A DNA stretch of 64,000 bases, taken from positions 1,375,001-1,439,000 of the forward strand of contig NZ_CP116221.1 of assembly GCF_023556315.2 (NCBI RefSeq), in the 5' to 3' direction. The translations under genes and the position numbers were made by a program. The notes beneath the pieces are model-generated. The model ran no database searches. It saw only the letters and a program-made list of their open reading frames with translations, and had not been told where the DNA came from. Positions within the stretch are counted from its first letter, which is position 1. Each line of letters starts with the position of its first letter. Below, in pieces: positions 4,083 through 27,302 of the stretch. This stretch comes from Psychroserpens ponticola (lineage in GTDB: Bacteria; Bacteroidota; Bacteroidia; Flavobacteriales; Flavobacteriaceae).

Positions 4083-5804
4083 TTAGTGAATATCTAAACC
4101 AAACGTATTTCTGAGTAATTCAATATTTGGATTCTTTTCTTTTAACTTTTCATATTTATCTTGATCAGTGAAGACATATTTTTTCGAAGCTTCTTCATTA
4201 ACATGAATATCTAGTTTTAAGTCGTAATTTCTTAGTGTCTTACGTAAATATTCCATTAAAGGGTACTGAGCTCTTTCTAATTCTACTTTTAGTGTTTCGT
4301 TAGGAAACGTGATTTCAATGTTGGTGTTGACGAGTTTTGGAGAATCCATCTCCAGAATTGAAGCCATGATTTTTTCTCCTTTTTTATGTAGAATTTTAAT
4401 GTAAGAATTCCATGTTTTTAAAAATGCAGCTTCTGTAACGTCTTCTTTTGGTAAATCATCTTCATCAATTACAACTTCCATTTGTCTGATGAGATGTTCC
4501 TTTTTTGCTTTTATACTTTTTAACGATAGACCTGAAGTTCTTGTATCTTTCTTTAATTCAATTTTCGGTAAAGGTGTATTGGAGTAGGAAGAATCTGCGT
4601 CTTGAGATTTTTCTACTTTGAGATCACTGTCAGTAGAATTTTCAATTGACTTATGTTCTTTAGGAATAACTACAGGAATAGGAGTAATGCCTTTAGCTTT
4701 AAAGTAAGATGCTGGTATTATGTAATGTTTGCTATTTTTTTTTTCTCCATCAAAAGTGATAGAGGCTAATTGCATGATACAGAGTTCAACGAGTAAGCGT
4801 TGATTTCGGCTACTTTTATATTTGAGATCACAATCATTAGCGAGTTCTATACCTTTTATAAGAAATGCATGACTAGATTTTCTTGATTGCTCTTGGTATT
4901 TGAGTTTGGTGTCGTCTCCAACTTCTAAAAGTTCTAAGGTTTGTTCATTTTGACAGACTAATAAATCTCTAAAGTGAGAGGCTAAGCCTGAAATATAATG
5001 ATGACCATCAAAACCTTTCGACAATGTTTCATTAAACTGAATCAGTAACTCTGGAATTTTATTTTCCAGAATTAAGTCGGTACTTTTAAAATAGGTTTCA
5101 TAATCGAGAACATTTAAGTTCTCTGTAACGGCTTGTCTTGTCAAGTTTTTACCTGAAAAACTTACCACACGATCAAAAATAGAAAGTGCATCACGCATGG
5201 CTCCATCAGCTTTTTGCGCAATAATATGAAGCGCATCATCTTCAGCAGTTATACCTTGTTCGTTGGCGATATATTTTAAATACTCTTTGGCATCGGTTAC
5301 TGTAATACGTTTAAAATCAAAAATTTGACAACGCGATAATATGGTTGGTATAATTTTATGTTTTTCAGTAGTGGCAAGAATAAAAATACAATGCTTTGGA
5401 GGTTCTTCTAATGTTTTTAAAAAGGCATTAAAAGCGGCTTGAGATAACATGTGAACCTCATCAATAATATACACTTTGTATTTACCAACTTGAGGAGGAA
5501 TACGAACTTGATCTGTTAAGCTTCTTATGTCGTCTACAGAATTATTAGAAGCTGCATCGAGTTCGAAAATATTAAAGGCAAAATCTTCATCTTCAGTTTC
5601 TGTGCCATCGCTGTTAATCATTTTAGCAAGAATACGAGCGCATGTTGTTTTACCAACACCACGAGGACCTGTAAATAATAATGCTTGAGCTAAGTGATTG
5701 TTTTCAATGGCATTCAATAACGTATTGGTAATCGCTTGCTGACCAACAACGTCCTTAAACGTTTGTGGTCTATACTTTCGAGCCGATACGATGAAATGTT
5801 CCAT
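4083..5804 (-). CDS. dnaX: DNA polymerase III subunit tau (gamma by slippage)
   Basis: Clamp-loader ATPase that loads the sliding clamp at the replication fork. Visible: Walker A GPRGVGKTT (46-54), DEVH box (115-118), LEEPP (132-136) and the SRC sensor motif (157-159). The start MEHFIVSARKYRP is the family's usual N-terminus. The cysteines of the zinc module, usual after Walker A, are absent; residues 60-80 are an acidic linker instead. A ten-A tract at codons 354-357 (4735-4744) lies exactly where the ATPase core (domains I-III) ends; a one-base slip in either direction leads to a stop within a few codons, which would give a gamma-like short product. The tau-specific C-terminal part is 357-573. 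It is followed 20 bp later by the lipoprotein gene. Confidence 0.95.
   Translation of the reverse strand: MEHFIVSARKYRPQTFKDVVGQQAITNTLLNAIENNHLAQALLFTGPRGVGKTTCARILAKMINSDGTETEDEDFAFNIFELDAASNNSVDDIRSLTDQVRIPPQVGKYKVYIIDEVHMLSQAAFNAFLKTLEEPPKHCIFILATTEKHKIIPTILSRCQIFDFKRITVTDAKEYLKYIANEQGITAEDDALHIIAQKADGAMRDALSIFDRVVSFSGKNLTRQAVTENLNVLDYETYFKSTDLILENKIPELLIQFNETLSKGFDGHHYISGLASHFRDLLVCQNEQTLELLEVGDDTKLKYQEQSRKSSHAFLIKGIELANDCDLKYKSSRNQRLLVELCIMQLASITFDGEKKNSKHYIIPASYFKAKGITPIPVVIPKEHKSIENSTDSDLKVEKSQDADSSYSNTPLPKIELKKDTRTSGLSLKSIKAKKEHLIRQMEVVIDEDDLPKEDVTEAAFLKTWNSYIKILHKKGEKIMASILEMDSPKLVNTNIEITFPNETLKVELERAQYPLMEYLRKTLRNYDLKLDIHVNEEASKKYVFTDQDKYEKLKEKNPNIELLRNTFGLDIH
4732..4745 (-). promoter_or_regulatory. 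Candidate slippage/frameshift site in dnaX
   Basis: On the coding (minus) strand G is followed by ten A and then TAGC. In frame it reads GAA AAA AAA AAT AGC. One extra A (or a -1 ribosomal slip on A AAA AAA) gives E-K-K-K followed directly by TAG. One A fewer gives K-K-I-A-N-I-T then TAA. Both products end at about residue 357-361, right after the clamp-loader core. dnaX of E. coli (ribosomal -1 shift) and Thermus thermophilus (transcriptional slippage on an A run) are known precedents. Confidence 0.65.
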
Positions 5805-27273: not shown

Positions 27274-27302
27274 ATGTTTTTTGAAAAAAAAAACAAAAAA
27301 AA
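27274..27302 (+). repeat. Homopolymer A10-C-A8 at the start of the BioF2-like gene
   Basis: Ten A (27284-27293), one C and eight A (27295-27302) follow ATG-TTT-TTT-G. From the ATG at 27274 the present tract gives a 19-codon dead-end frame. With one A fewer it joins the BioF2-like frame (M-F-F-E-K-K-T-K-K-T-I-Q). This looks like a site for phase variation or transcript slippage, or a sequencing error. Confidence 0.55.

Follow-up and report, generated by a model that had tools for sequence, protein, structure and literature searches.

A conserved A10 tract with an abutting RNA hairpin as the probable site of programmed transcriptional slippage in dnaX of Bacteroidia

We propose that the dnaX gene described here gives rise to both tau (573 aa) and gamma (~357 aa) through programmed slippage of RNA polymerase on a tract of ten A's, probably stimulated by an RNA hairpin directly upstream. 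We assign this reading a probability of roughly 0.77. From comparisons of sequences we infer that slippage occurs in the cell, mainly as an act of RNA polymerase and with stimulation by the hairpin, and that the cell uses both proteins. The hairpin, the interchange of A9, A10 and A11 tracts and the class-wide reach go beyond the original prediction, which had started from the tract and the stops around it.

Results

The dnaX gene and its A10 tract

The window is the whole stretch of DNA analysed, 64,000 nucleotides from Psychroserpens ponticola, and its features are as follows.

4083..5804, minus strand: dnaX, one open frame for tau, 573 aa (ORF list; families TIGR02397, PF13177, PF22608)
4735..4744, minus strand: putative A10 slippage tract, inside codons 354-357 (E-K-K-N) (sequence and conservation)
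4732..4734, minus strand: TAG stop, reached by one nucleotide more or a -1 ribosomal shift; gamma would end at residue 357; frame kept closed in relatives (sequence)
4718..4720, minus strand: TAA stop, reached by one nucleotide fewer (or two more), giving a predicted gamma-like product of 361 residues; created by a conserved Ile ATA codon (sequence)
4086..4733, minus strand: tau-only part, a variable linker and the C-terminal domain (purifying selection in homologues of relatives with an out-of-frame tau part; AlphaFold2 model)
4745..4764, minus strand: RNA hairpin CUCUAUCA-CUUU-UGAUGGAG, 8 bp with a 4-nt loop, its 3' end touching the first A (folding, covariation, synonymous constraint)

The plus strand reads CTATTTTTTTTTTC at positions 4732-4745, which corresponds to G-A10-TAG on the coding strand. 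The ten A's are bounded by G4745, where the E354 codon begins, and by T4734, and codons 354-358 are GAA AAA AAA AAT AGC, exactly as the original prediction had read them. Its description of the slipped frames is equally accurate. An extra A, or a -1 slip, leads directly into TAG (4734-4732). With one A fewer the frame continues as ATA GCA AAC ATT ACA TAA, and the TAA (4720-4718) follows after five codons, 14 nt past the run. The predicted short products are 357 aa (one A more) and 361 aa (one A fewer).

The tract was also said to lie at the end of the clamp-loader core, and this is borne out by the domain matches. The dnaX_nterm match (TIGR02397) stops at residue 346, and the match to clamp-loader domain III (PF12169), which is weak and under the curated cut-off (E 0.008), stops at residue 348. 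The tract begins 6-8 residues past these ends, where the variable linker starts. In an AlphaFold2 model of DnaX the final helix ahead of the linker stops at residue 347 and pLDDT falls below 50 at residues 351-364; the model is poor overall (pLDDT 60, pTM 0.32; the ATPase part is poor), so that only the end of domain III and the linker were used. Foldseek with this model matched E. coli clamp-loader chains at query TM-scores of ~0.2 and lends no independent support. At the protein level, E354-K355-K356 is unchanged across 20 aligned homologues.

The tract is conserved in relatives

Among 367 scored dnaX rows (the family sample being mostly one row per genus), a run of at least nine A's within 150 nt around the site was found in 22/22 rows of the genus, 116/118 of the family and 79/79 of the named close relatives. 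It was likewise present in 41/47 rows from other families of the order and 51/66 from other orders of the class, and is absent in 23/231 rows of family, order and class together. In other classes of the phylum 15/35 rows have it and 20/35 are without it. As controls we applied the same test to non-overlapping 150-nt windows upstream in the same dnaX genes, which gave 0/132 for the genus, 0/708 for the family, 0/474 for the named relatives, 6/293 for the order, 0/450 for the class and 0/228 for the phylum. All these counts are uncorrected for shared descent, and the named rows overlap in kinship with those of genus and family. The A run, which the original prediction expected to find intact in related flavobacteria, is unbroken in every genus row and, by a model of hairpin plus A run, in 23/23 genus genomes.

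Even dnaX genes with a GC content as high as 0.69 retain the long run, and its first A can fall on any of the three codon positions, so the nucleotides are kept, and not the lysines alone. The Lys codons are AAA in 91/91 and 92/92 rows, where 68 and 69 would be expected. Amino-acid constraint as the sole explanation is ruled out, as the run stays while codon phase and flanking residues change.

Rows cut by contig ends (L129, L341, L224, L178) were dropped before counting, two that were too short (L027, L369) were left out, and the gene of G017, split over contigs, is outside the tables. No usable dnaX match was obtained from G069, G072, G104 and G137 in the family, G149, G153 (partial) and G176 in the class, G212, G232, G244, G248 (partial) and G253 in the order, and G282 and G305 in the phylum; the phylum genomes G278, G283, G286, G292, G296, G300, G303, G306 and G315 lie outside the sample. 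Two rows fit the pattern poorly, L138 (A5, split) and L367 (A8). In L138 (genome G042) dnaX is split and the site holds only a short A run, GAAAAG followed by TAA. In L311 and L362, from genomes of 0.49 Mb and 0.34 Mb, dnaX stops within a few codons of the slippage site; these reduced genomes, of endosymbiont size, would yield the gamma-like product only.

A10 runs elsewhere in the genome

A10 runs are depleted in the window (2, versus a mean of 8.5 in dinucleotide shuffles), and there are 23 in the 4.03 Mb genome. Four of these 23 lie clearly within a long open frame, namely those of dnaX, truA and two ORFs with lipoprotein-like starts. The truA tract (L254, positions 660361-660371 of the genome), which served as a control, is private, with at least nine A's in 1/23 genus genomes. 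This non-conserved tract and the same-gene control windows rule out general A richness as the origin of the dnaX tract. Since at least nine A's are kept just past domain III across genus, family, order and class rows, the dnaX tract is, by this comparison, not due to chance.

Several other runs were observed along the way. The window's second A10 (27284-27293, plus strand) sits right where a 442-aa ORF, called mechanically, begins and is probably part of its leader. In two ORFs with lipoprotein-like starts near 1.99 and 2.04 Mb of the genome (L267 and L269), A12 and A11 runs immediately follow what we presume to be the cysteine of a lipobox. Seven near-identical T10-T12 runs between 1.89 and 2.07 Mb (L262-L266, L268, L270) are flanked by TTCGCGA and GAGGTTAAG, and L261 at 1.85 Mb is a diverged eighth copy; no open frame longer than 59 codons spans the copies of this repeat.

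Stops in the slipped frames

For single-ORF genes, the expected number of stops past the run came from synonymous recoding of the codons there, drawing on the codon usage of the gene itself. In 87/93 family genes each of the two slipped frames meets a stop within 20 nt past the run, against 18.9 expected (sd 3.5). The corresponding figures are 68/68 versus 10.4 for the named relatives, 31/35 versus 9.4 for the class, 14/22 versus 5.4 for the order and 5/10 versus 1.5 for the phylum. Of the 41 rows of family, order and class that have at least nine A's and tau in another frame, 40 meet a stop within 30 nt in each of the two frames that do not encode tau. One frame is stopped by varied sequences (AAT AGC, TCT AAA or TCT AGC), and the other through the Ile codon, which is ATA in 58/71 Ile rows against 18 expected. 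Measured against synonymous recoding, the out-of-frame stops are under selection, and their conservation, on which the original prediction also depended, far exceeds what codon usage would give.

An RNA hairpin abuts the tract

The window hairpin has a folding energy of -9.3 kcal/mol (z -3.76), and none of 200 shuffles was as stable. A scan for synonymous constraint over 347 conserved codon columns in 93 family genes gave its highest value, out of 344 seven-codon windows, just upstream of the run, a peak that we attribute to the hairpin there. The mean folding energy of 24-nt segments is lowest at the 5' edge of the tract. It reaches -6.0 there over 84 distinct family rows, where the profile averages -1.25 (sd 0.61), -5.1 over 51 class rows (mean -1.87, sd 0.57) and -2.9 over 41 order rows (mean -1.29, sd 0.43). 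In 15 phylum rows it is -3.4 (mean -2.12, sd 0.53), which two other offsets equal. A second, weaker dip lies 36-42 nt upstream of the tract in the family rows, averaging -3.3 to -3.4.

Compared with the rest of the same gene, the hairpin site ranks among the top 5% in 22/22 rows of the genus, 86/116 of the family, 77/79 of the named relatives, 21/51 of the class and 10/40 of the order, and in 1/15 rows of the phylum outside the class. By synonymous recoding, p is at most 0.05 in 21/22 genus, 76/116 family, 72/79 named and 13/51 class rows; no excess of note appears in the order (4/40, with 2 expected) or in the phylum outside the class (0/15). Covariation points the same way within the family. 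Fifty rows chosen by eye as being in register, out of 101 distinct family rows, contain 17 double-change cells versus 5.3 in shuffles. With all 101 rows, the paired share is 67.0% versus 60.7, with 70 double changes versus 42.4; 0/500 shuffles reach either value. The signal is weaker than in the 50-row count, since the register differs in several rows.

A covariance model of hairpin plus tract found one strong match per genome in the 23 genus genomes (44.5-48.6 bits), and the next best anywhere, with 150 candidates scored per genome, reached 26.2 bits. Distant class members (L226, L276, L284, L288, L301, L305) form a hairpin at the same place from unrelated sequence. In rows of family f2 such as L235, L331, L334 and L336, which carry A11-A12, the stem is not above the shuffled level. 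Judged by folding and substitution patterns, the hairpin is firm in the family and present in a good part of the class; for most order rows from other families, and for rows from other classes, it is unproven. An intrinsic terminator was considered and rejected, as on the sense strand it is A's that trail the hairpin and on the other strand the T run precedes it. No structure was found in the 60 nt downstream of the tract in the window (z +0.86), nor downstream of the tract in the family (mean z -0.11; z < -1.5 in 4/84 rows).

Tau is kept whichever frame the genome encodes

The genomic frame differs between close relatives. In 3/22 rows of the genus the tract is A11, with the TAG of gamma in frame and tau in another frame. 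Generally, relatives carry A9, A10 or A11 with nearly the same flanks, so that some encode tau in the genomic frame and others a product of gamma length. Across the 208 rows of family, order and class with at least nine A's, tau is in frame 0 in 151, in frame 2 in 35 and in frame 1 in 6, with 16 unassigned. Three Lacinutrix records with near-identical flanks, L162, L165 and L172, have A9, A10 and A11 with tau in frames 2, 0 and 1. A hairpin of -4 kcal/mol or lower is present in 9/9 frame-1 and 14/21 frame-2 family rows.

With 288 rows placed on a quick tree, the frame state changed at least 42 times, and at least 26 times among 207 family rows. The 26 family changes compare with 24-29 in 20 label shuffles. 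The three A11 rows of the genus account for three changes on a quick tree; L025 and the named L179 seem to belong to one species and so are not independent. Scatter of the frame state would be expected from a neutral, labile tract length. Random assembly errors would leave a similar pattern, and they could account for part of the single-base differences among A10 tracts. However, all four scored g120 genomes are split with A10, their frame being set by bases past the run. We also compared each of 30 split genes with its nearest unsplit relative, using a bound where synonymous sites were saturated. The dN/dS of the tau part, or its bound, is at most 0.39 in 28/30 pairs, the other two being 0.51 and 0.61. 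The shared g120 split state and the low dN/dS of the tau part count against assembly error. Given this purifying selection, the split species probably need tau and make it, some of them with one nucleotide less and the rest with one extra.

Discussion

A model of slippage

In the model that we favour, RNA polymerase would copy the T10 template into A10 RNA. Once the tract has been copied, the RNA-DNA hybrid of 9-10 bp would consist entirely of rA:dT, and the RNA leaving the enzyme could fold into the 8-bp hairpin against the hybrid, a geometry like that of an intrinsic terminator with A's in place of U's. The hybrid could then realign, so that the A's in a transcript would number 9, 10, 11 or more. 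A transcript with A10 (or three A's more or fewer) would encode tau of 573 aa, one with an additional A would meet UAG at once and yield gamma of 357 aa, and one with an A fewer would reach UAA five codons later and yield 361 aa. In relatives with A9 or A11 the gamma-length product would come from the genomic frame, and tau through slippage. As each cell would hold a mixture, genomic tract length would matter little. Ribosomes that follow RNA polymerase closely might prevent the hairpin from forming.

The proposal that tau and gamma come from one gene by way of this tract, made in the original prediction, gains support from the A run, the double stops, the interchange of frames and the selection on tau. 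Its further suggestion that the transcript is where the slip occurs is favoured over a ribosomal shift, given the opposite shift directions across species, the lack of downstream structure and the hairpin at the 5' edge of the tract. Making tau from frame-1 and from frame-2 genes would take opposite shifts, which no single ribosomal shift provides and polymerase slippage on a homopolymer can provide. In E. coli, RNA polymerase is reported to slip in both directions on the Thermus dnaX run (PMC6260861), and a 5' stem-loop stimulates it at an adjacent motif in a Roseiflexus insertion sequence (PMC5009743).

Could the ribosome shift instead? The tract contains a slippery A_AAA_AAA with an immediate stop in the -1 frame, so that -1 frameshifting in the style of E. 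coli dnaX could end gamma at UAG, and two relatives of family f60, L352 and L353, resemble genuine -1 sites, with A_AAA_AAG-UAG ahead of a strong hairpin. We nevertheless consider this unlikely. Tau would require the opposite shift in 11/288 tree rows, neither the window nor the family shows downstream structure, and a run of at least nine is kept although seven bases suffice for a -1 frameshift. Moreover, an upstream hairpin next to the slippery site lowers -1 frameshifting in a 70S system, and the GGAG here touches the tract, versus a spacing of 8-11 nt upstream of the slippery site (PMC6321510). As the main route in the window gene, -1 frameshifting is rejected for its wrong direction in frame-1 relatives, the missing downstream structure and the poor Shine-Dalgarno spacing. 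Ribosomes are known to slide on poly(A), and sliding both ways on the A run, behind a faithful polymerase, would also account for both shift directions; so might a +1 shift aided by the upstream hairpin, and upstream hairpins do stimulate +1 shifts in vitro without RF2 (PMC6321510). We hold such sliding to be quite improbable, since there are just two AAA codons in frame and frame-2 genes, the commoner split state, need -1, yet keep the hairpin in 14/21 of the family rows. Transcriptional slippage at nine A's, on the other hand, is documented for Thermus dnaX (PMC5009743, PMC1088944).

Two explanations dispense with programmed slippage. The tract could be a contingency locus, where length changes during replication switch tau on and off in the population, and both the variation in length between close relatives and the scattered state on the tree would suit it. 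This is very improbable, as tau is expected to be essential (truncation of the C terminus of tau was unrecoverable in E. coli; PMC11470591), the tau part of split genes is under purifying selection, and the conserved double stops and hairpin would be given no role. Hardly any weight goes to an ordinary E-K-K stretch in AT-rich DNA with split genes as assembly errors, even though the three residues are conserved as protein and homopolymers are error-prone. Such a stretch would not be expected to persist up to 0.69 GC in all three codon phases, with AAA lysine codons throughout and with selected stops and hairpin; the A10 split state shared by the g120 genomes and the non-conserved truA tract also speak against it.

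Polymerase slippage, if it operates as proposed, may extend well beyond the window gene. At about even odds, dnaX of the Bacteroidia is indifferent to frame. A tract of 9-11 A's, aided by the hairpin in many lineages, would let the polymerase slip both ways and so provide workable amounts of tau and gamma from any DNA frame, and at least one lineage would have swapped to a ribosomal -1 site. Replication slippage would then be nearly neutral, which would explain why A9, A10 and A11 species intermingle.

If this is true, a major bacterial class relies on polymerase stutter, set by a hairpin in many lineages, to decode one of its core replisome genes, and the split dnaX annotations of many genomes are neither pseudogenes nor errors. 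The paired A9/A10/A11 species and the switch to ribosomal frameshifting would also offer a ready system for asking why two recoding mechanisms take each other's place. The literature that we searched, which is incomplete for subscription journals, contained nothing on how Bacteroidota make gamma; nor did it describe for them the hairpin upstream of the tract, the conservation of both stops, the single-ORF form or the reach across the class.

Comparison with known systems

Larsen et al. 2000 reportedly described transcriptional slippage in dnaX of Thermus thermophilus. There it is established that gamma is made by slippage on at least nine A's (PMC5009743, PMC1088944). The window gene resembles this system in having at least nine A's late in dnaX, tau in one ORF and nearby stops in both other frames; its A10 is uninterrupted in the sense strand, with stops 0 nt (TAG) and 14 nt (TAA) past the run. 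Unlike in Thermus, the tract here lies directly past domain III, is abutted by a hairpin, is kept over most of the class sample and is interchangeable with split genes. This comparison was made by description rather than with the Thermus sequence, and the accessible text of both papers does not mention a hairpin for Thermus dnaX (PMC5009743, PMC1088944).

GeneTack identified 17 two-ORF dnaX genes in 12 genera, with gamma in frame 0 and tau elsewhere, nine of them with ten A's, and slippage was proposed (PMC3711429). The split relatives found here, such as L023-L025, L101, L162 and L172, are of this kind, and the window gene, with its one frame, is not. For dnaX the main text names only Chlorobi, while Supplementary Figure S3 may hold Bacteroidetes; a hairpin and conserved double stops are not described in the accessible part of that paper (PMC3711429). 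A stem-loop in the nascent RNA, 5' adjacent to the slippage motif as in our gene, is found in the Roseiflexus IS element (Penno et al. 2015), where it is required for a single-base deletion at a T5C5 motif (PMC5009743). The present case differs in its A9-A11 tract, in lying in a replication gene and in that both directions seem usable.

E. coli gamma stops at residue 431, early in domain IV (PMC11470591), and in the frameshifted dnaX of Blochmannia the shift lies downstream, in the tau-only region (PMC3017870). The two f60 rows mentioned above, L352 and L353 (genomes G228 and G258), come from two genera. The 60 nt downstream of their sites fold at -26.5 and -20.3 kcal/mol, and both rows are without the long run that four other f60 rows (L326, L327, L329, L330) have. 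This is an apparent switch from transcriptional slippage to ribosomal -1 frameshifting.

In E. coli itself, gamma is made from dnaX by -1 ribosomal frameshifting. L352 and L353 resemble that system, but tau rather than gamma would be their shifted product, in the -1 frame. The window gene shares with E. coli the gene and, as predicted, the same two products; it differs in having no AAG heptamer (A10 is followed by T), no downstream stem-loop and a misplaced Shine-Dalgarno motif, the GGAG touching the tract. Slippage in dnaX is already established in Thermus and has been proposed for the two-ORF genes, and the form proposed here would add to these.
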